This document shows, piece after piece, positions 128 through 36,793 of a stretch of 36,793 nt of DNA. The position numbers were made by a program, and so were the translations under genes. The stretch's first letter is position 1, and each line of letters begins with the position of its first letter. Source of the stretch: a virus. The DNA lies in the IMG/VR virus record IMGVR_UViG_3300036827_000083, positions 1 through 36,793 of that record; one strand, written 5' to 3'. Below the pieces are notes generated by a model. It did no database searches and was not told the origin of the DNA. It saw only the letters and a program-made list of their open reading frames with translations.

Positions 128-286
128 GAGTGGCTTGAAGGTCATCTTTCTCACAAAGCACGATTTAAGAGATTAGTAGAAGAAGAAAAGAGGAGAGAAG
201 AACTAAAAGAATATCACAGAAAATTAGAAGAAACGAAAGCAAAAATACCAAAAAGAAAACTCAAATCTTGGGAAATTTTAGATTAA
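83..286 (+). CDS. Small membrane-anchored coiled-coil protein
   Basis: The protein has 67 residues. The start is the ATG at 83, immediately after the stop (79-81) of the preceding gene. A longer reading from a TTG at 41 would overlap that gene by about 40 bases and is rejected. Residues 1-14 are a hydrophobic, aromatic-rich segment (FLFILLSIFIW) that should be one membrane span. The rest is highly charged and helical, rich in Glu, Lys and Arg (RLVEEEKRREELKEYHRK), so a cytoplasmic coiled coil is expected. A copy of the first 15 codons is at the right end of the window because of the circular overlap. I do not recognise a family. A single span plus charged helix resembles small phage accessory membrane proteins, but no function can be assigned. 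Confidence 0.6.
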   Translation: MFLFILLSIFIWSFFEWLEGHLSHKARFKRLVEEEKRREELKEYHRKLEETKAKIPKRKLKSWEILD

Positions 287-4280: not shown

Positions 4281-4376
4281 TTTAACCTCCTTGATTAATT
4301 GACAAATCCTAAGATGCACGTCACTGTCCGTGCTGATCACGGCATAATTCTTTATTGTGTAATATATTTTAATGGT

Positions 4377-4559
4377 TCACTCAAAAAATCCATCGCCATC
4401 GCCCTCATTATCACCCTCTCCCACCCCATTTCCATCGCCGTGGCCATCGCCATCACCATCGCCGTAGCCATTGCCACCGCCAAATAAATTGTAGTCATAG
4501 CAACATCCATCTCCATCTCCATTGCTATTGATATTTACTATAAAAATATTATTATTCAC
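4377..4559 (-). CDS. Gly-Asp repeat low-complexity protein
   Basis: This reading frame has 60 codons. After a short N-terminal strand (MNNNIFIVNINSN) it is almost entirely Gly alternating with Asp, Asn, His, Glu or Tyr (GYGDGDGDGHGDGNG). The DNA is a degenerate GGCGAT/GGAGAT hexamer array that is richer in GC than its surroundings. The GTG start overlaps the stop of the upstream gene (GTGA), which supports real, coupled translation. The Gly-Asp alternation recalls calcium-binding loops but lacks the nine-residue RTX period. A slippage-prone microsatellite without function is also possible. Confidence 0.5.
   Translation of the reverse strand: MNNNIFIVNINSNGDGDGCCYDYNLFGGGNGYGDGDGDGHGDGNGVGEGDNEGDGDGFFE
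4395..4525. repeat. Degenerate CCATCG-type hexamer repeat
   Basis: The plus strand repeats ATCGCC, ATCACC, ATTTCC and ATCTCC units in register with a 6-base period. This is the DNA basis of the Gly-Asp protein. Such arrays change length by slippage in multiples of six, which preserves the frame. Confidence 0.7.
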
Positions 4560-6397: not shown

Positions 6398-6552
6398 TTA
6401 CTTTCCTTTATTCTCTTGAATTGATACGGTCTAGTTTTTTGTATTTTATCTTGTATTTCTTCTCCTCCATATAATATATGATGTAATTCATCTTTAGCAT
6501 TTTTTATTGATTCATCTAATTCATTTTCAAGTTCTTTTATGTAATTATTCAT
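6394..6552 (-). CDS. Small helical hypothetical protein
   Basis: This 52-residue reading frame starts at ATG 6552, which overlaps the stop of the DUF551 gene, and ends in an overlap with the next start. The sequence is strongly helical and charged (NNYIKELENELDESIKNAKDELHHILYGGEEIQDKIQK). The overlaps on both sides and the absence of any gap support it as a real gene in the array. Confidence 0.6.
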   Translation of the reverse strand: MNNYIKELENELDESIKNAKDELHHILYGGEEIQDKIQKTRPYQFKRIKESK

Positions 6553-6770
6553 AACTCACTTTTCTCTATTTTGTTTGATAATGGCATCCAATGTGTAACA
6601 CCCAGATAATAACCCTCATTTCCGTCAAACCATTGATGTTGAGATGTATTTTCAGGAATGTAACAAAGAACATAGACACCCTGCTTTGTTCGTGAAAAAA
6701 CATCATCGCTACGCCCAGATTTATTTACTGCCGGTAAATAGTCTTTAACGCTTATCCACTCACTCATCAT
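6549..6770 (-). CDS. DUF551 domain protein
   Basis: This 73-residue protein has the hallmarks of DUF551: WISVKDYLPA at the start, VYVLCYIP in the middle, a Trp/Gly stretch (QHQWFDGNEGYY) and the C-terminal VTHWMPL. This family is widespread in phage early regions; its function is unknown. Its start shares a 21-base block with the start at 6127-6130 (see repeat). Confidence 0.88.
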   Translation of the reverse strand: MMSEWISVKDYLPAVNKSGRSDDVFSRTKQGVYVLCYIPENTSQHQWFDGNEGYYLGVTHWMPLSNKIEKSEL

Positions 6771-6780
6771 TCACTTTCCT
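6760..6780 (-). repeat. Repeated ribosome-binding/start cassette, copy 2
   Basis: Identical to 6120-6140 over 21 bases. It contains the ribosome binding site and start of the DUF551 gene. Confidence 0.75.
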
Positions 6781-6799
6781 CAATCATTATAAAAATTTT

Positions 6800-6961
6800 T
6801 CATATCTTATGCCCTACATCAAAACAAAGTTCCTCTAAACGCTCTAATCTTTTATTCATGTCATTAATACGTTCATATAATATATATGGCTGTAAGTGCC
6901 AAGTAATTGCTAATGGTAACAACATAAACATGAACAATAATATATAATGTGTTGGCTTCAT
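6800..6961 (-). CDS. Small membrane protein
   Basis: This 53-residue frame starts at ATG 6961, just after the stop region of the gene at 6965-7360. Residues 5-20 are hydrophobic (HYILLFMFMLLPLAIT) and form one membrane span or an uncleaved signal. The rest is a charged helix (YERINDMNKRLERLEELC). The topology resembles small phage membrane proteins such as i-spanins or holin accessories, but it lies in the early operon and no role can be given. Confidence 0.55.
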   Translation of the reverse strand: MKPTHYILLFMFMLLPLAITWHLQPYILYERINDMNKRLERLEELCFDVGHKI

Positions 6962-6964
6962 GGT

Positions 6965-7360
6965 TTATACCTTTAAATAACCTTTTTCTATAAGCATTAT
7001 TAACATCTGCGCTCTAACATCGGCTTCTTTATAGTTTATTGACATTAAAAACGGTGGTTTATCAGGGTCATCTATATAAGACAATAGCCAACATGATAAA
7101 AAATTTTTTAAAAATTCTAATCTATATTTTCCTTCGCATATTGTGTGCGGAAGAATATAGCCCAATTCTGATACTGTATAAGCGGAGCATATTTTTTCTG
7201 GACTCGGATAATCTGCTTGAATACATGTATGAGTATTATCAACAAATGAATTATTGCCATCATTTGTTAACCAATAAAAATATGATTCTTGTTTTAAACC
7301 AAATTCTTTAAGTTTCTTAGCAAGAGGTAAACTAACAACTTGTTCATCTAATGTAATCAT
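6965..7360 (-). CDS. Conserved phage hypothetical protein
   Basis: This 131-residue protein has the layout of a widely distributed phage protein. An N-terminal LAKKLKEFGLKQESYFYWL segment is followed by YTVSELGYILP, a variable middle part, and a C-terminal EADVRAQMLIMLIEKGYL helix. The pattern 'SELG.MLP ... EA.ARA.ML..L.E.G' is familiar from phage and prophage early regions, where its function is not known. It overlaps the small gene upstream by 4 bases. Confidence 0.75.
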   Translation of the reverse strand: MITLDEQVVSLPLAKKLKEFGLKQESYFYWLTNDGNNSFVDNTHTCIQADYPSPEKICSAYTVSELGYILPHTICEGKYRLEFLKNFLSCWLLSYIDDPDKPPFLMSINYKEADVRAQMLIMLIEKGYLKV

Positions 7361-7530
7361 TTTACATCCTTGTAATAATTATCATAAGCAAAAATAAATT
7401 TACCCAATTCGCAAGAAACGCTTATTAATGTAAACATCATATGATTTGCATCATCAGGCAATTCATTTTTTATAGCTATTAATAAATCCGCTATTTCATT
7501 TATTTTATTGCGAATTTCTTTTTCTCTCAT
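7357..7530 (-). CDS. Small hypothetical protein
   Basis: This 57-residue frame fills the gap between two genes and overlaps both (TGATG at its start, ATGA at its end). It is helical and acidic (REKEIRNKINEIADLLIAIKNELPDDANHMMF). The gap-filling and double overlap are strong support for a coupled gene. Function unknown. Confidence 0.6.
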   Translation of the reverse strand: MREKEIRNKINEIADLLIAIKNELPDDANHMMFTLISVSCELGKFIFAYDNYYKDVK

Positions 7531-7889
7531 CAATGAACATCCTTTGTTTCATTTTCTTTTCCATCTATCATTTTTCCTGCCATAATGTTTGTAAAATCCT
7601 CCCCAAATTTTTTCTTTTTCATTTCTTGCAATTCATTACTTTTAATAGTAAGGATTGGATGATCTAAATCAGTTTTTACAGGTATTAATTCTAAGATCTC
7701 AATACGTGATACTAAACATTTTAATGATTGATCTACAACCGCTATAATTCCGCAATCTATATCATTGCCTTTTTTGTCTACAATAATAATTCTAATAGAA
7801 TCTTTATTATCTATGTATTTTAAGTCAATAAACAACTGGCTCTCATCGCATGATTTAGCTATTTCACTATCCCATATTTTAAGTTTCAT
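7530..7889 (-). CDS. Hypothetical protein
   Basis: This 119-residue protein starts at ATG 7889, overlapping the stop of the upstream gene. Predicted strands alternate (KIWDSEIAKS, LFIDLKYID, SIRIIIVDKKG, CGIIAVVD), and a charged C-terminal region follows (KKKKFGEDFTNIMAGKM). It is probably a small beta-rich fold. No recognised family. Confidence 0.6.
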   Translation of the reverse strand: MKLKIWDSEIAKSCDESQLFIDLKYIDNKDSIRIIIVDKKGNDIDCGIIAVVDQSLKCLVSRIEILELIPVKTDLDHPILTIKSNELQEMKKKKFGEDFTNIMAGKMIDGKENETKDVH

Positions 7890-8149
7890 TTTTCACCCAT
7901 AATTTTATTATCATTGTTTATAAAAGTTTTAAAGAATGCATTTATAACCCATTCTCTATTAGATGCATTTTTCTTGCATTCTTCATTATCCACGCAATGC
8001 CTAACATTTACATACATTGATCCTGTATCGTGTGAAAATAGTTTACTAGTATCATGTATTGCCACTTTAATAAATTTATCCTGTCTTGGTTTGCTACAAC
8101 AATGACATTTCCAAGTTAATTTACTAAAATCGGGTAATTGATTTTGCAT
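7886..8149 (-). CDS. Putative zinc-binding protein
   Basis: This 87-residue protein is preceded by GAGGAAGC. It has a cysteine cluster CHCC (residues 15-18) and a second group HCVDNEEC (about 51-58), spaced like a four-ligand zinc site with a beta hairpin between (KVAIHDTSK, SMYVNVRH). Small proteins of this type are common in phage early regions. A structural zinc and a nucleic-acid or protein contact are likely, but this is inference. Confidence 0.65.
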   Translation of the reverse strand: MQNQLPDFSKLTWKCHCCSKPRQDKFIKVAIHDTSKLFSHDTGSMYVNVRHCVDNEECKKNASNREWVINAFFKTFINNDNKIMGEK

Positions 8150-8161
8150 GTTTTGCTTCCT

Positions 8162-8611
8162 CTAGTGATTCGTTTTGGTACTTTCATTTTTTGATTCCAT
8201 GTATTTATCATATTCTTCTTTAGATAACACAATATTCTGCTGTGTTATCCTCCTTTCTTTTCCATTCTTAAGTTTTATTATAGTAAAACCTTTGGTTAAC
8301 ACTTCCCTTATCTGATCTTCCGTAAGCTCGTTTATTTCCCTATTTGATTGATGGGTTTTAATGCCCTCAAATTCCGTTGATAGTTCGTTAATCATTTTGA
8401 CTCTAATGAAATCATAATCAAGTTTTTCATCGGGTAAATAATCTTTGAGCGAGTAATAAAGATTAGTCGTTACATTAGTGACGCAATTTAGTATTAGCAA
8501 ACTCACATTTGGAACAAGCAACTTACCCTGATTCTCTTTGAAATATTCTCGCAGATCACTATGATATGAATCCATAATGTTATTGACGATCTTATCTAAG
8601 ATATCTTGCAT
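8162..8611 (-). CDS. Hypothetical protein
   Basis: This 149-residue protein is mainly alpha-helical. An N-terminal helical domain (DILDKIVNNIMDSYHSDLREYFKEN...SLLILNCVTNVTTNLYYSLKDYL) is followed by a basic strand-turn segment (EVLTKGFTIIKLKNGKERRITQQNIV) and a charged tail (SKEEYDKYMESKNESTKTN). It overlaps no neighbour, but gaps are under 20 bases. No family recognised. Confidence 0.6.
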   Translation of the reverse strand: MQDILDKIVNNIMDSYHSDLREYFKENQGKLLVPNVSLLILNCVTNVTTNLYYSLKDYLPDEKLDYDFIRVKMINELSTEFEGIKTHQSNREINELTEDQIREVLTKGFTIIKLKNGKERRITQQNIVLSKEEYDKYMESKNESTKTNH

Positions 8612-8627
8612 AATTAATTTTCCTTCT

Positions 8628-8801
8628 CTACTCTACGTATAATTCAGGATAAAATACCCTCTCTATACATTTTTGTAGAGCTTGATATTCATCTTCTATG
8701 AGAGCTAATCCTTTTGCATCTTGAATTTCAATAAAATGCTTCCTGGATTGTCTTAATATTTCAAAGCACCATCCTAGCAAAAAATCTGATTCCTTACTCA
8801 T
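8628..8801 (-). CDS. Small hypothetical protein
   Basis: This 57-residue frame starts at ATG 8801 behind AAGGAT. It is helical with a single amphipathic pattern (FLLGWCFEILRQSRKHFIEIQDAKGLALIEDEYQALQKCIERV). It lies in line with the array of small leftward genes. Function unknown. Confidence 0.55.
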   Translation of the reverse strand: MSKESDFLLGWCFEILRQSRKHFIEIQDAKGLALIEDEYQALQKCIERVFYPELYVE

Positions 8802-8826
8802 TTATAATCCTTCGATAAATATAATG

Positions 8827-9030
8827 TTATTGATTAACTTCTCTTTCTTTCAACCATTTTTCAAATTCATTCATCTTAAAAAAAACTTTCCCTCCGATGT
8901 GAAATGTACAAGATTTTATTCCATCTGTATTTTTGTGAAGCATTTGTCTTAATGACGATTCAGTAAAAAATGGTGTATAAATATTAGCCAATTCTTTTAC
9001 CGTCTTATAATTATTAATATCTACTGTCAT
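8827..9030 (-). CDS. Excisionase-like DNA-binding protein
   Basis: The protein has 67 residues from ATG 9030, chosen because AGGAG lies 7 bases upstream; an upstream ATG at 9069 lacks a site. It has the winged-helix excisionase pattern: KTVKELANIYTPFFTESSLRQMLHK is helix-turn-helix, SCTFHIGGKVFFKMNEFEKWLKE is the wing plus last helix. It is the first gene of the leftward early operon and faces the divergent region before the recombination module. It is a good candidate for the regulator of both transcripts. Confidence 0.75.
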   Translation of the reverse strand: MTVDINNYKTVKELANIYTPFFTESSLRQMLHKNTDGIKSCTFHIGGKVFFKMNEFEKWLKEREVNQ

Positions 9031-9193
9031 ATTAAAGCTCCTGTTTTTTTGGTTTCTGTATTTGACCATTTTTTGCTTAAAATTTCCATTCCCCTTTTAA
9101 ATATATTTTCATTATAACCTATTATAATATGTTTACTATTATTTTATTTTGTTATAGAATGTTTTTGTGAGTTAACAAAGTGGAGTATATAAA
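9031..9193. promoter_or_regulatory. Divergent early promoter region
   Basis: This 163-base gap separates leftward and rightward operons and is very AT-rich. On the plus strand TTTACT, 17 bases, TAGAAT is a plausible sigma70 promoter ahead of the gene at 9194. On the minus strand TATAAT occurs twice in the segment near 9105-9128 and could serve the leftward operon. I see no strong palindrome. The boundaries are approximate. Confidence 0.5.
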
Positions 9194-9517
9194 ATGAGCA
9201 GAACAAATAGTATAATAACTAACATTAAAAAAGGACGACAAAAGGTCATGGATGATCTAAATAAATACGTAGATCGTTGTTTAATAGACGAATATGCAGA
9301 TAAAAACCTTGAAGAAGGGCATATTTTAGATATAGATAGCGTCCCCGAAAATGAACAAACCAACTTCCTCATAAAACTATTTGAAACAGATACTGGTCTT
9401 CGTGATTTTGCTTTGCATTACATGCAAAAAATGATTGATGAGAGATTGCCGGAAGTTACAAAAAATGATCGTTTTGAGCAAGATTTTGGCGATATATATC
9501 AAATGAGATATGTATAG
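9194..9517 (+). CDS. Hypothetical protein of the recombination operon
   Basis: This 107-residue protein starts behind GTGGAG. It is helical and acidic towards the end. N-terminal basic residues (NSIITNIKKGRQKVMDDLNKYVDRCL) are followed by ENEQTNFLIKLFETDTGLRDFALHYMQKMIDERLPE. It is the first gene of the rightward operon with the RecT-like protein. No family recognised. Confidence 0.65.
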   Translation: MSRTNSIITNIKKGRQKVMDDLNKYVDRCLIDEYADKNLEEGHILDIDSVPENEQTNFLIKLFETDTGLRDFALHYMQKMIDERLPEVTKNDRFEQDFGDIYQMRYV

Positions 9518-9543: not shown

Positions 9544-10380
9544 ATGACATTAAGCATTAGACAGAATAATTTTACGATTGTACCCCAAAATCTCACAGAG
9601 GCTATGACCTTTGCAGACATGATAGCGAAATCAAGTTTTTGTCCCGATGCAATGAAGGGTAAAAGTGGAGACGTATTAGTTGCTATACAAATGGGATCAG
9701 AAATTGGTTTATCTCCTATGCAGGCATTACAGAATATAGCTGTTATCAAAGGACGTCCGACACTATGGGGTGATGCAGCATTAGCGGTTGTTATGGCTCA
9801 TCCATCTTATATTTCACACCGTGAATGGATGTATGGCAGTATCAAAGATGGCACACGCACAGCTTATATTACGATAAATCGTAAAAATTCCGAAGAATAT
9901 ATAGTATCGTTTTCCATAGAACAAGCAAAGACTGCTGGTTTATGGAATAAAGTAGGCCCCTGGACGCAATACCCGGATAGAATGCTACAAATGCGAGCAA
10001 GAGGATTTGCTATACGCGATAAATTTGCAGATGCTTTGCGTGGTATTAATATTCGTGAGGAAGTCGAAGATTATAATGATAAGCCCAAGAAAAAAGTTGA
10101 TAATGTTATTGATATGCCAAAATTAAATGATCAGCAACAAGAAACTACTATCGAAAAACCCATAATTGAGTCTCATAGTACAGATCGTGATATTGAGCAG
10201 GATTTATTAGATATAAGTTGCTCAGATTCATTAGATGCATTGGAGAAAAGATTCAAGGAGTCATATAAATATTTTGTATCAATTCGAGATACTGAAAATG
10301 TTAAGCGATTGATTGATGCTAAGGACAAGAAGAAATTAGAATTATCTGAAACTGTCGAGGTAACAGATGAACAATCTTAG
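9544..10380 (+). CDS. RecT-like single-strand annealing protein
   Basis: This 278-residue protein matches the phage RecT-type recombinases. FDEAM-like NLTEAMTFADMIAKSSFCPDAMKGKSGDVLVAIQMGSEIGLSPMQALQNIAVIKGRPTLWGDAALA is the family core, followed by the RMLQMRARGFAIRDKFADALRGI segment. These proteins anneal complementary single strands, usually together with an exonuclease. The C-terminal 100 residues are polar and probably contact partners. It is coupled to the Gp157-like gene by a 14-base overlap. No classical exonuclease partner is adjacent, but a DEDDh exonuclease is two genes downstream. Confidence 0.85.
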   Translation: MTLSIRQNNFTIVPQNLTEAMTFADMIAKSSFCPDAMKGKSGDVLVAIQMGSEIGLSPMQALQNIAVIKGRPTLWGDAALAVVMAHPSYISHREWMYGSIKDGTRTAYITINRKNSEEYIVSFSIEQAKTAGLWNKVGPWTQYPDRMLQMRARGFAIRDKFADALRGINIREEVEDYNDKPKKKVDNVIDMPKLNDQQQETTIEKPIIESHSTDRDIEQDLLDISCSDSLDALEKRFKESYKYFVSIRDTENVKRLIDAKDKKKLELSETVEVTDEQS

Positions 10381-12798: not shown

Positions 12799-13764
12799 TT
12801 AAACAACTAAGTAACCGATTAATATCGTTCCATTCAATGCGGTTGCAGCAGTGTTATTGTAAATAGTTAATGTTGATGTTCCTGCACCTGCTGTAGCTGT
12901 CAATGTGACATTTTCAGTAGTATTAGTGCCGCCCATAATAGTTAATAAGATAACAGATGATGTTGTAATGAATGTATTTGTCCAGGTAATAGCATACGAA
13001 GCACCGCCTGCTGTTGTTAATGCAGAGGTGGTGATTACACCAGATTGAGCGCTTGCTGTGACAGCATTAGTAGTTTCTGTTCCATTCGCTTTACCAAGAA
13101 TTATATTACTAGCCGATGTCATGGTATTAACAGCATTATTTACGACAACGTTAGTGGATACAATACCTGAATCTTGAATGGTACCTGCTGCATCTGCTGC
13201 TGTAACAATGTGTCCTGCGGTAAATCCAGATCCTGCAGTCGATGCAACCGTTGATAATGAATTGTTCGATGCGGCTTTTGCTGCTGCTGTTCCTAATACA
13301 CCACCATCACCGATAGTGCCATCTGCTGCTGTGAATATCGCAACATGAGAAACAGTAGGAGAAGCATTTAACATAACTACTTTTGTTTTAGCAGCATTAG
13401 TCGGTGAATAACCTGCATCTTTAATTTGACCGCTAGTTCCATTAAAGTTTGCAAAATCACCTGATACAACGGGTAATAATACATCGCCAGGATTAGCCCA
13501 TGATACTAATGAGTATCCGGTTGATACTGAATAACTAACTGTAAATATACCAAATGTACCTTTTTGTGTTAACGCATTAAATGAATACCAGATATTAAAA
13601 ACATCTGTTGGTAATATAGGATTTCCATTTACGTTTTGATTATTTAGATAACCTGCCGTTGTAATTTTTGCGAGATTATCTGTCGTGACCATTGTATTTA
13701 AACGTGGATTTACTGTATCACCTACTAATCCTGTTACGCCCACATTGAGTGCTAAAATTCCCAT
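12799..13764 (-). CDS. Tail fibre-like protein
   Basis: This 321-residue protein is a beta-rich fibre. It has repeated AD.AGTIQDSGI / ADGTIGDGGVLGTAAAKAASNNSLSTVASTAG phrases of the kind found in phage fibre shafts (K.AGYSPTNAAKTKVV). The C-terminus (SVILLTIMGGTNTTENVTLTATAGAGTSTLTIYNNTAATALNGTILIGYLVV) is a likely receptor-binding beta domain. The Ala-rich composition and Asn/Thr content match its neighbours. It is part of the fibre run. Confidence 0.78.
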   Translation of the reverse strand: MGILALNVGVTGLVGDTVNPRLNTMVTTDNLAKITTAGYLNNQNVNGNPILPTDVFNIWYSFNALTQKGTFGIFTVSYSVSTGYSLVSWANPGDVLLPVVSGDFANFNGTSGQIKDAGYSPTNAAKTKVVMLNASPTVSHVAIFTAADGTIGDGGVLGTAAAKAASNNSLSTVASTAGSGFTAGHIVTAADAAGTIQDSGIVSTNVVVNNAVNTMTSASNIILGKANGTETTNAVTASAQSGVITTSALTTAGGASYAITWTNTFITTSSVILLTIMGGTNTTENVTLTATAGAGTSTLTIYNNTAATALNGTILIGYLVV

Positions 13765-13776
13765 TTTTAAATCTCC

Positions 13777-14394
13777 TTAAACTATTGTTAAATTCCCTTG
13801 TGGGCCGCCCTGTGGTGACCAAGTAGTATTTGCAACAATGCAGATCAAATCAATTGAATCAGAGGGTAAACTTGATGATACACTTCCGCCTATACCAGTT
13901 GTGCTTGTTAAATTTCCTACCTGAATATTCTGTCCTGCATTTTGCGCTATAGTCCATCCACCAGAGCCAAATCCTATTAAACTTATTTGCGTTCCAAAGG
14001 CGGCTATCATTGGTAATGTAAATGTTACAAGAGATCCGCTTGCAGCAACATAACCATTTGCAGGTAGCATTGTTTGTGTTGGAGTTGTTACATTATTCCA
14101 ATTTAAGATTGTGCTATTACTTACAACTAGTGTCCAAACTGCTGTTACCGTACTTCCTGTTGTAGTGCATACATATAAAACTTTATTCGTCGTATCCCAG
14201 CAAAGTTGAAATGTGTTACCTGCTAAATTACCGTTAGGGTTTCCAGGAAAGTTTAAGACAACATTGGCATTAGCTAAATTTATAACTTGTCCTAAGGTTT
14301 CTTGTACGGAAGTATTACCTTGCACTGCGCAAATGATATCGCCAAGCATAGCATTAGTCACCGTTGGCAATTGCGTAAACATTTCATTTGACAT
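13777..14394 (-). CDS. Tail fibre-like protein
   Basis: This 205-residue protein has an N-terminal module (FTQLPTVTNAMLGDIICAVQGNTSVQETLGQVINLANAN) resembling fibre anchor sequences in the genes beside it. The C-terminal half (GSLVTFTLPMIAAFGTQISLIGFGSGGWTIAQNAGQNIQVGN, ending GNLTIV) is paralogous to the gene at 12204-12785. It is probably a short fibre or a fibre tip. Confidence 0.78.
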   Translation of the reverse strand: MSNEMFTQLPTVTNAMLGDIICAVQGNTSVQETLGQVINLANANVVLNFPGNPNGNLAGNTFQLCWDTTNKVLYVCTTTGSTVTAVWTLVVSNSTILNWNNVTTPTQTMLPANGYVAASGSLVTFTLPMIAAFGTQISLIGFGSGGWTIAQNAGQNIQVGNLTSTTGIGGSVSSSLPSDSIDLICIVANTTWSPQGGPQGNLTIV

Positions 14395-14413
14395 GTTTTA
14401 CATCCTTGTAAAA

Positions 14414-14614
14414 TTATCCTGGGTACCAGGTTTGCTCTGCTAAATTTGTTGGCGTGACATATAAATTATTTAATTGATTTAGGAAATCGCTGAATTGCAT
14501 AGCAGCATCATTGCCAATACCATAAGGCGACTGACCGAAATACATTAAATCAGTCGATGTATTAGTCGTTATCGGATTTGCAATAAATATGTCATTTATA
14601 TTTTCTGACGCCAT
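14414..14614 (-). CDS. Short fibre anchor module (duplicated N-terminus)
   Basis: This 66-residue protein repeats the first 39 residues of the 322-residue fibre at 16062-17030 ([16 protein letters not shown], one substitution), then diverges into 27 unrelated residues. The DNA of the shared part lies in the 152-bp duplication. It may be a head-binding module that pairs with the following gene, or a remnant left after a fibre exchange. The intact start, ribosome binding site (AAAGGATTAA) and stop argue that it is translated. Confidence 0.6.
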   Translation of the reverse strand: MASENINDIFIANPITTNTSTDLMYFGQSPYGIGNDAAMQFSDFLNQLNNLYVTPTNLAEQTWYPG

Positions 14615-14649
14615 AACTTTAATCCTTTAAAGTAAAGCTAAATTATCTC
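14498..14649 (-). repeat. 152-bp direct repeat, copy B
   Basis: This stretch is identical to 16914-17065 except for one base (T/C in codon 18 of the shared reading frame). It covers the first 39 codons of a fibre gene, its ribosome binding site and the last seven codons, stop included, of the gene at 17043-17243. At this site the remnant of that gene is out of context, so copy B is the younger one. Confidence 0.9.
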
Positions 14650-14680
14650 GCCAAGTATAATTGTCCTAAAGTAATAATTA

Positions 14681-15643
14681 TTACCACCATTGAATAATAA
14701 TAAATCCAACTCCACCATTACCGCCATTGCCTGGTGTTCCTAAAACTGATGCCCCACCACCACCGCCACCACAGCCTGGAGCGCCATTACCACCTTTGCC
14801 TCCATTACCTGTGCTATTACAACCACCACCTCCTGCACCGCCTAACGAAAATAAAGGATAAGTCCTAGGATTTGATCCATTTAATTCATATAAATTTGTA
14901 TATCCAGCCTCTCCATTTCCGGCGTTAGTACTAGATGTGCTTCCCGTTCCACCATTTATAATATTTACACTACCCGGAACCCATAAAGGTCCAACTCTTG
15001 TAACTATAGATACACCTGTTTGTCCACCTGTACCACCACCGCCTGCACCGCCTGTTACCATAGCAGGAGTAATAGTTGATGGCCAAGTAAGACTTGCTGA
15101 ATTTGAATTTGAACCAGCTAGACTAGCTAAACCAATAAGAGGAGATGAACCGCCTAAACCAATCAATAATCCACTTAAACGACTATTAGATGATGACAAA
15201 GCACTAGTAGAAAGACCGCCTGTTGAACTGCTAGAAGCAGTACCACCGGCAGCTTGTATGAGTAATGTATCCGGAATTGCAGTTGTTGCTAAAGTAGAGG
15301 GAACAACTGCAACGCCACTATTTTGTCCTGCTGTAGCACCTGATCCTGTAGAACCAAGACCGCCGATTCCAGGAATTAAAAAAATTGTAGATGGAATCAT
15401 TTTTGTAGAAATCATCCCTGAAGCAGTACAACCTGATGCTCCACCACCAGCTCCAGCAGCAGCAGTACCATTAAAACCACCACCTCCTCCTCCAACACAA
15501 TAAAAGGAAATATAATTTGCTTCATCGGGTATATGAAATGGATAGCTATCATTTGTTACTGTTGTACCATTATAAAAATTATTTGCAAAACAAATTGCAA
15601 ATTTTTGATTATAATTATGTGAAATGCCTTTAAATAAAGTCAT
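14681..15643 (-). CDS. Glycine-rich tail fibre/adhesin
   Basis: This 320-residue protein has an N-terminal part of about 70 residues (FAICFANNFYNGTTVTNDS..FHIPDEANYISFYCVGGGGGG) and then long Gly-rich runs, ending in GNGGVGFIIIQWW. This composition and the C-terminal FIIIQW strand are typical of glycine-rich phage adhesins that pack polyglycine helices to expose receptor loops. The start overlaps the previous gene (TAATG). Two Cys pairs in the Gly region (GASGC, GCGGGG) are unusual for such a protein. A receptor-binding tip is the most likely role. Confidence 0.8.
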   Translation of the reverse strand: MTLFKGISHNYNQKFAICFANNFYNGTTVTNDSYPFHIPDEANYISFYCVGGGGGGFNGTAAAGAGGGASGCTASGMISTKMIPSTIFLIPGIGGLGSTGSGATAGQNSGVAVVPSTLATTAIPDTLLIQAAGGTASSSSTGGLSTSALSSSNSRLSGLLIGLGGSSPLIGLASLAGSNSNSASLTWPSTITPAMVTGGAGGGGTGGQTGVSIVTRVGPLWVPGSVNIINGGTGSTSSTNAGNGEAGYTNLYELNGSNPRTYPLFSLGGAGGGGCNSTGNGGKGGNGAPGCGGGGGGASVLGTPGNGGNGGVGFIIIQWW

Positions 15644-16062
15644 TAATAATCAGCTCCTACAACTGTTGTAGCAAACCCTGTTGAAGCGTTTACAGTTCCT
15701 ATAGAAATCATAATCACATAGGAAGAAGGAATTTGAATATTCATAGGAAACTCCCAGTTTAAACTAGCTGCCACATTAGATGCTGTTACAGCACCCAATG
15801 TAAATTCTTTTATCAAAGTATTATTGATAGCACTAGTATTAGTAGAACCATTATTGAGATAAACACAAAAACTAGTAGCAGCAGTTGTAGTAGTTGTATT
15901 TGATTTAACAACTATGCTTTGTATAAAACTACCATTAGCACCAGCAGTAAATATTGATACGACATTCGCACCTGTACCATCTAAGGTGGTATCTGCTGTT
16001 GTTATTGTGCTCCATGCCGTATGTGGAGTTAAAGTGAAAACTGGAGCTGTATTCATAGCCAT
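15643..16062 (-). CDS. Tail fibre-associated beta protein
   Basis: This 139-residue protein starts at ATG 16062, overlapping the stop of the fibre gene upstream, with GAGGA in front; the reading frame is open further upstream but that part overlaps the fibre gene. The sequence (NTAPVFTLTPHTAWSTITTADTTLDGTGANVVSIFTAGANGSFIQSIVVKSNTTTTTAATSFCVYLNNGS) is a compact beta-sandwich type seen in phage virion proteins. It ends in a coupled overlap with the Gly-rich adhesin and probably forms part of the same structure. Confidence 0.7.
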   Translation of the reverse strand: MAMNTAPVFTLTPHTAWSTITTADTTLDGTGANVVSIFTAGANGSFIQSIVVKSNTTTTTAATSFCVYLNNGSTNTSAINNTLIKEFTLGAVTASNVAASLNWEFPMNIQIPSSYVIMISIGTVNASTGFATTVVGADY

Positions 16063-17030
16063 TAATAATATCCTCTTGATAATGCTGTTGTTAAACCTAA
16101 AGATGGTCCACCACCGCCTCCTCCTGCTGCTGCCCATGTTCCATCACCTCGCCAAAAAGTAGAAGAAGAGGCACCTGATCCAGCATTAAAATTAGCTACT
16201 TGTAATTGAGCTCCTGAACCTAATGTACCAGCAGTAATATTATTAGCTTGCGTTGTATCAGTAGTTGCACTTGCTGCAAAACTTACGCCATTAGTTTTTG
16301 TGACTGTGATTGCGCCCGCGTTATTTAATGTTGCATCGCCGCTCATTGCTACATCTGTTGCAACATTGGATACATTACCAACAAAAATGTGTGTATCAGT
16401 TAACGCAGGGGTACTTGCAGCAGAAGCCCATGTTCCATCACCTCTCCAGAAAGTCGATGATGATGCACTTGTTCCTGAATTAAGATTTGTTACAGGCAAA
16501 TTACCCGTTACACCAGTCGTTAACGGCAATGCAGTACAGTTAGTCAATGTTCCTGATGTTGGCGTTCCCAAAACTGGTGTTGTAAATGAGGAGGATGTAG
16601 CTAGTGCAACTGCACCTGATCCTGTCGTACCATTACTTAAATCACTTGCTGCAAGCTGGCTTACGGTAATTGCAGCACCACCACTTGATTGTCTTAAAAC
16701 CTGATGCGCACCGCCCGTTGCGCTTAAATCTGCATTTGTACCGCCTCTTGCGCCTGATAATAATCCCGTCCATCCTAATGTTAACGAAGTAGCTTCTAAT
16801 AATGCGGTTGCAGGAGTGCCTCCTAATGTAAGAGTAACATTAGTATCATTAGTTTTAGTAAATGCTGCTGCTGTATAAGGCGCACCAAATTGTGCTTTAA
16901 AATTTGCATATGTCATAGCAGCATCATTGCCAATACCATAAGGCGACTGACCGAAATACATTAAATCAGTCGATGCATTAGTCGTTATCGGATTTGCAAT
17001 AAATATGTCATTTATATTTTCTGACGCCAT
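16062..17030 (-). CDS. Tail fibre with repeated WRGDGTW motif
   Basis: This 322-residue protein begins with an anchor module ([31 protein letters not shown]), then a beta-rich shaft. The phrase [13 protein letters not shown] occurs twice (around residues 200 and 300), a repeat typical of fibre shafts near recombination points. The RGD in it is part of this fibre motif and does not imply integrin binding. The N-terminus is duplicated in the 66-residue gene at 14414-14614. The main fibre of the cluster. Confidence 0.8.
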
Positions 17031-17065
17031 AACTTTAATCCTTTAAAGTAAAGCTAAATTATCTC
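16914..17065 (-). repeat. 152-bp direct repeat, copy A (likely source)
   Basis: Near-identical partner of 14498-14649. Here the repeat spans the 3' end of the gene at 17043-17243, the intergenic ribosome binding site and 39 codons of the 322-residue fibre gene, all in natural context. This marks it as the original copy. Confidence 0.9.
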
Positions 17066-17243
17066 CATTAAGCAATAACATGGGAGATCCATTTAATAAT
17101 AAAAATAAATTCCCGACGGGTGGTACTATTGGCACAAAATTAGCCCACGATGCCACAAAAGGACTATCAACAGCAAAATTGAAATTATTCTCAGTTGCAA
17201 AATTCAACAACATACCAAATGGACTACCATTATGTAATTGCAT
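17043..17243 (-). CDS. Small virion-associated protein
   Basis: This 66-residue protein (ATG at 17243, overlapping the previous gene's end by 14 bases) is rich in Asn, Phe and Leu, with MQLHNGSPFGMLLNFATENNF at the start and two NGSPMLLLNGD-like repeats at the C-terminus. The last codons lie in the 152-bp repeat. It belongs to the fibre group by position. Function unknown. Confidence 0.5.
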   Translation of the reverse strand: MQLHNGSPFGMLLNFATENNFNFAVDSPFVASWANFVPIVPPVGNLFLLLNGSPMLLLNGDNLALL

Positions 17244-30576: not shown

Positions 30577-30732
30577 CTATTTCTTTTTCTTATGCATTTT
30601 TTCAATGGCTTTAATATGTTTCATTTCCATTTTTTCATGTTTAGCTTTGTCCATATGGTGTTTAGCTTTCTCATGATGATGTGCTGCTTTGTCCATGTGA
30701 TGCTTTGCTTTCTCATGATGAACGTGTTTCAT
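30577..30732 (-). CDS. Histidine/lysine-rich repeat protein
   Basis: This 51-residue protein starts at ATG 30732 behind a strong AAGGAG. It contains 13 His, in a repeat of H-(H/E)-x-KAKHHMDKA units (KAKHHMDKAAHHHEKAKHHM). It should bind metal ions (Zn, Ni, Cu) or DNA, or change charge with pH. It is the first of the small basic genes after the portal. No family assigned. Confidence 0.65.
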   Translation of the reverse strand: MKHVHHEKAKHHMDKAAHHHEKAKHHMDKAKHEKMEMKHIKAIEKMHKKKK

Positions 30733-30808
30733 ATTATTCTCCTTAAGTAGTTTTAATAATCCATTACACAATTAATCATTACTATGTATACCTTATCATT
30801 AAATATCA

Positions 30809-36498: not shown

Positions 36499-36747
36499 AT
36501 GAATTTATTTACCGCAGAACAAGAAAGTTATATTCAACACGAAGTTAAAATCAGATCATTAGAAGGTGCTTATACTAGATTTGAAGAAACATTTAAGCGT
36601 CTTGAGAGTAAAATTGATTCTCATTTTAAGTGGACTATCGGAACAATCCTTATGCTTGTAGCGTCGATGGGGACAATGGTTGGCGGCGTTATGTTAAGTA
36701 AGTACATTGAAAATCATCAATCTCAAATTAAAGTACAGGTTAAATAA
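36499..36747 (+). CDS. Coiled-coil membrane protein
   Basis: This 82-residue protein starts at ATG 36499 with ACGAGG upstream; an in-frame start at 36454 overlaps the previous gene and has no site. A helical part (SYIQHEVKIRSLEGAYTRFEETFKRLESKID) leads into one membrane span (WTIGTILMLVASMGTMVGGVML) and a polar tail. The layout resembles holin-associated or DUF1640-like proteins. The circular join cuts this gene; its last 81 bases are repeated at 1-81. Confidence 0.7.
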   Translation: MNLFTAEQESYIQHEVKIRSLEGAYTRFEETFKRLESKIDSHFKWTIGTILMLVASMGTMVGGVMLSKYIENHQSQIKVQVK

Positions 36748-36793
36748 TATGTTTTTATTTATTTTACTTTCGATATTTATTTGGTCATTTTTT
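36667..36793. repeat. Circular-assembly overlap, right copy
   Basis: Identical to bases 1-127. Annotation beyond 36666 duplicates the start of the window; the reading frame at 36749-36793 is the beginning of the gene at 83-286. Confidence 0.9.

Follow-up and report, generated by a model that had tools for sequence, protein, structure and literature searches.

The tail-fibre cluster of an uncultured P22-like phage (IMG/VR virus record IMGVR_UViG_3300036827_000083, 36,793 bp, the whole of which is called the window here) carries one gene-end/fibre-start junction at two places, and this raises the question of how the second copy arose and whether it serves the phage as a switch of host range. 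The P22-like head and DNA-ejection module comprises portal (phrog_156), terminase (phrog_38), coat (phrog_283) and DNA ejection (phrog_598) genes. Low-complexity ORFs were observed at 4352-4559 (Asp/Gly-rich, GDGDGDGHGDG) and at 30577-30771 (His/Lys-rich, built of a 21-nt repeat).

A repeat search of the window confirmed the near-identical direct repeat described in the initial annotation: positions 14498-14649 and 16914-17065 match over 152 nt (99%, spacing 2416) with a sole mismatch at base 90 of the coding (minus) strand, ACA/Thr in the downstream gene and GCA/Ala in the upstream one, leaving identical stretches of 89 and 62 nt, far above chance. The 66-aa (14414-14614) and 322-aa (16062-17030) ORFs said to share a fibre anchor start, hereafter a66 and A322, were both present as claimed. 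All features of the locus lie on the minus strand, and along it come p60 (17043-17243; 66 aa, start set at 17243 with the ORF open to 17279), the complete A-type tail fibre A322, p139 (15643-16062; a small member of the 'MAANTAPIF' family, all-beta, with its start placed at 16062 from homologues), G320 (14681-15643; 320 aa, glycine-rich, PF21722 Gly_rich_2, 4.1e-9), a 31-nt spacer of 26% GC (14650-14680) that separates the G320 stop from the repeat and marks the join site, then a66 and, directly after it, the MSNEMFTQLPTV-type (NEM-type) fibre gene B (13777-14394). Repeat copy 2 (16914-17065) sits at the p60/A-fibre junction, the standard arrangement in relatives, and copy 1 (14498-14649) leads into a66. 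Each copy is composed of 23 nt of p60, a 12-nt spacer with the ribosome-binding region, and the first 117 nt (39 anchor codons) of the fibre ORF. Of the seven codons and stop of p60 counted previously, the stop stands, and the codons are six full ones (DNLALL) plus two bases of the seventh; likewise, three genes rather than four were counted between the copies (the rest of A322, the ~139-aa p139 and the 320-aa G320). A322 also contains an internal 81% repeat (16132-16199 versus 16426-16493), a FWRGDGTW segment found in many fibres.

The window ends in an exact 127-bp repeat (1-127 = 36667-36793; extension by one base fails), which looks like k-mer closure of a circular map by the assembler rather than a biological terminal repeat, 127 presumably being the assembler's k. 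This end repeat is the only repeated 127-mer in the window, so that an assembly graph at k=127 would separate the two copies of the 152-bp repeat; an assembly artefact is unlikely, as these copies have no 127-mer in common.

When the coat, the 637-aa tail protein and an anchor profile were used as queries, close relatives were recovered, together with about 50 contigs whose fibre begins in the same way. In a fixed order, these relatives carry the 637-aa tail protein, a ~115-aa protein, the ~60-aa p60 and the A fibre, followed by fibre genes B, C and D; in some of them members are absent or multiplied. Identified from its leucine-rich terminus, ..LL[DNS]G..L.LL or something close to it, p60 lay directly 5' of the A fibre at 52 of 53 loci, which upholds the view that the upstream codons within the repeat are native to the neighbouring gene. 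One A copy was the rule: among 36 loci with at least 2.6 kb of downstream sequence, two A anchors were found, besides the window, only in one relative, G017 (L200/L179), where they are tandem and diverged and the second A fibre ends in WYPA directly before B. The comparison of related phages proposed alongside the initial annotation thus found the double anchor not conserved.

Unrelated A loci had 80-86% DNA similarity from about the ATG to +130..148, where it stopped, while in related contigs similarity began upstream and stopped at or after the anchor (L192/L214, -688..+142; L220/L234, -1660..+295). Since similarity ends at the anchor border, fibre bodies are exchanged behind the anchor. Judged by these alignments, phages with differing bodies have the fibre start in common as a self-contained module of ~48 codons, and its conservation suggests an N-terminal anchor that would attach the fibre to the virion. 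Neither 50,697 phage records nor Pfam or PHROGs contained a match to the anchor family, and no solved-structure homologue was matched by sequence; searches with the fibre region, coat and anchor found no cultured relatives, and the DNA pattern of the p60 junction found no further record in viral_contigs. The phage anchor was also present, at 84% and 78%, in two contigs (L238, L239) assigned to MAGs of Nitrospirae and Bacteroidetes; these are probably phage contigs that ended up in bacterial bins, and host labels are therefore unreliable. Local gene multiplication is common in the fibre cluster of these phages: L180 carries tandem triplicate fibre-like genes (6516-9458 in reverse-complement coordinates; 323-325 aa, MTGTTNQVQTP) and L167 three tandem C-type genes (13019-15308). 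A tandem 94-bp repeat (97%, spaced 102 bp) was seen at 7435-7630 of L166.

Against this background, we compared a66 with the A fibres on both sides of the repeat boundary. Residues 1-39 are common with A322, the repeat ending after codon 39 (..NDAAM); beyond this breakpoint a66 continues with QFSDFLNQL (residues 40-48) and A322 with TYANFKAQF, versions of one motif, and a66 retains F44 and Q47, both invariant among A fibres. The version QFSDF recurs in a separate group of A anchors (L215, L220, L222, L232, L233, L234). In fixed register, QFSDFLNQL scored 9.07 bits on the anchor profile, a value reached among the 41,769 9-mers of the window (six frames) only by this segment and A322's own. The 'different end' earlier ascribed to a66 is thus still A anchor immediately past the breakpoint, no unrelated 9-mer scoring equally. 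Moreover, the stretch made up of the WYPG end, stop, spacer and B start (MSNEMFTQLPTV) could be aligned at the DNA level with L166 (WYPA, MSNEMFTQLPSV) and with the second A fibre of G017 (WYPA, MANEMVTELPPV). The residues past QFSDFLNQL showed no tie to A fibres or bodies (2367 of 5000 shuffles were as good), so that the proposed deletion of the body rests on the short WYPG end and synteny. With its anchor kept and the receptor-binding body absent (66 aa of anchor plus WYPG end), a66 is best read, from its sequence and setting, as what is left of a resident A fibre without its body, in the usual A-fibre place before B; A322 would be the working fibre and a66 a relic, or an anchor plug at most.

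The genes between the copies have a counterpart of their own. In L208 (IMGVR_UViG_3300050821_002486) the order is p60, A fibre (128 aa), p138, a glycine-rich protein and another fibre gene, which establishes that the A-p139-glycine-rich cassette exists as a single copy; p138 is 48% identical to p139, and the glycine-rich C-termini read IEWW in L208 and IQWW in G320. Relatives of p139 were found at 41 loci in diverse phages, with a fibre gene and at least one glycine-rich gene usually enclosing them, and G320 is likely a tip adhesin or fibre partner. Across the 'MAANTAPIF' family (L240-L280), on contigs of up to 208 kb, the small protein nearly always has a fibre gene on one side and one to three glycine-rich genes on the other; with its neighbours it may form a mobile adhesin cassette of diverse phages. 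A structural model of p139 gave an eight-stranded beta protein (pLDDT 81.7) with jelly-roll-like fold matches (best Z 10, rmsd 3.2-3.3 over 111-119 residues), from which no function was taken, such arrangements being unspecific.

How the two copies came to lie together can be approached from their flanks. The 5' flank, whole p60, is native at the 17-kb copy, and the 3' flank, the WYPx end and B (as in L166 and G017), is native at the 14-kb copy. With one native flank per copy the direction of copying is unreadable, and the direction from 17 kb to 14 kb that had been read from the p60 tail does not follow, as this tail normally stands 5' of any A fibre; nor is the tail senseless at 14 kb, where it is expected if the gene there was once a p60-adjacent A fibre. 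At the mismatch codon Ala is the common state in relatives, a weak pointer that the Thr of a66 is probably derived and A322 the unchanged copy.

We consider it probable that recombination between two related genomes set the cassette beside a resident A fibre, which was reduced to a stub. In an ancestor, the A322-p139-G320 cassette would have been placed in front of the resident A fibre, its 3' end joined to a p60 end there; the resident would have retained this p60 end, its anchor, the WYPG terminus and the following B gene and lost its body, leaving the 66-residue stub. The 152 near-identical bases might then derive from the anchors of sister genomes or have been homogenised, with the boundary falling within homologous anchor at codon 39/40. 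The likely agent would be a RecT-like single-strand annealing protein, encoded at 9544-10380 on the plus strand (phrog_561, 9.4e-41) in a genome that also encodes a Gam-like/Gp157 protein. Such an exchange appears to need the fewest assumptions to account for both flanks, the near-identity and the stub. Counted against it are the 31-nt spacer at the join and the intact start, ribosome-binding region and stop of a66, and our searches found no genome with a parental arrangement close enough for base-by-base reading of the junctions.

Another route to the same arrangement starts from an old tandem pair of A fibres like that of G017. Gene conversion would have homogenised their 5' ends before the second lost its body. 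The tandem pair of G017, with its second member ending in WYPA right before B, and the sharp boundary inside homologous sequence, just what a conversion tract gives, speak for such a history, but the anchors of G017 have diverged, so that conversion is not the rule, and the p60 tail 5' of the 14-kb copy requires an extra step; we consider this route unlikely.

A further reading concerns what a66 does and is compatible with an origin as a remnant. Because its start, ribosome-binding region and stop are all intact, a66 may be expressed, and with its frame also intact it could be a functional anchor plug or docking piece on tail fibre sites. Anchor-only truncated receptor-binding proteins are already known: Klebsiella phage KpV767 has a receptor-binding protein truncated to 69 aa whose N-terminus is conserved, and a docking role was proposed for it (PMC6872550). 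In both phages a receptor-binding gene is reduced to its anchor part beside an intact one; however, the start of a66 is near-identical to that of the intact fibre, whereas the two proteins of KpV767 have different attachment parts. The 66-mer was modelled with low confidence (pLDDT 61.5), and all other A fibre ORFs in the set had at least ~128 aa, which makes a functional plug rather doubtful.

The initial annotation had instead envisaged one-way copying of ~152 bp of p60 tail and anchor, with the 17-kb site as source and the 14-kb site as target, where they became joined to a short frame of unrelated origin. That the 17-kb site is the native place of p60 tail and anchor, and that the common Ala marks the Thr of a66 as the probable newcomer, would suit this account. 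Against it, the frame past the breakpoint is A-anchor sequence in correct register, and the downstream end with the B gene is what an A fibre normally has on its 3' side, so that the 14-kb place is not foreign; we regard one-way copying as improbable.

Least of all did the evidence favour a switch. A crossover at the repeats would excise exactly 2416 bp, with intact p60, then a66 and B remaining, and by restoring p60-a66-B it makes the arrangement in principle reversible; this neat product and the encoded RecT-like protein are what a phase-variable switch could draw on, with A322, p139 and G320 deleted or exchanged in part of the population to alter host range. The window held no inverted repeats of at least 25 nt, no tyrosine integrase, no serine recombinase or resolvase (PF00239 absent) and no reverse transcriptase (PF00078 absent), the deletion product is merely a body-less stub, and the arrangement is not conserved, the only relative with two A anchors having them diverged and in tandem. 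The host-range switch first proposed is accordingly possible but unsupported, and we hold it to be very improbable, as is the idea that the repeats and the RecT-like protein form a standing site for loading and unloading a three-gene adhesin cassette in the interval from p60 to the stub, with the stub as landing pad. An invertible fibre switch of the Gin/Min type was rejected, there being neither inverted repeats nor a serine recombinase, as was a diversity-generating retroelement, which would call for a reverse transcriptase and many template-A differences rather than one A/G difference in 152 nt.

The recombination of related genomes that we favour has parallels in studied phages. Fibres and tailspikes of T7/K1F and of Klebsiella KP32viruses are modular, with a conserved N-terminal anchor and an exchangeable C-terminal body (PMC6872550, PMC10408124). 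The A fibres resemble them in an N-terminal start common in DNA and protein, in swapped bodies and in similarity that stops at the module border, but the window has an anchor family without a counterpart in the 50,697 phage records, Pfam or PHROGs and two near-identical anchors in one genome. Recombination hotspots surround the receptor-binding domains of E. coli phages (PMC10408124), and likewise occur in the distal tail fibres of T-even phages (Tetart 1998, as cited in PMC10408124). As these are described there, conserved DNA adjoining the fibre bodies provides the exchange points, as in the window, whereas the trace left in the window is a direct duplication, not a clean replacement.

Thus, the locus is a scar of ordinary tail-fibre shuffling, not a demonstrated host-range switch. 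It records a fresh exchange of a fibre module in an uncultured phage group, with junctions that are still legible, and indicates that the anchor is where such exchange passes and that a stub deprived of its body can remain as a possible future landing site. The anchor family, for which the searched phage records, Pfam and PHROGs gave no match, helps to recognise fibre genes in this group.
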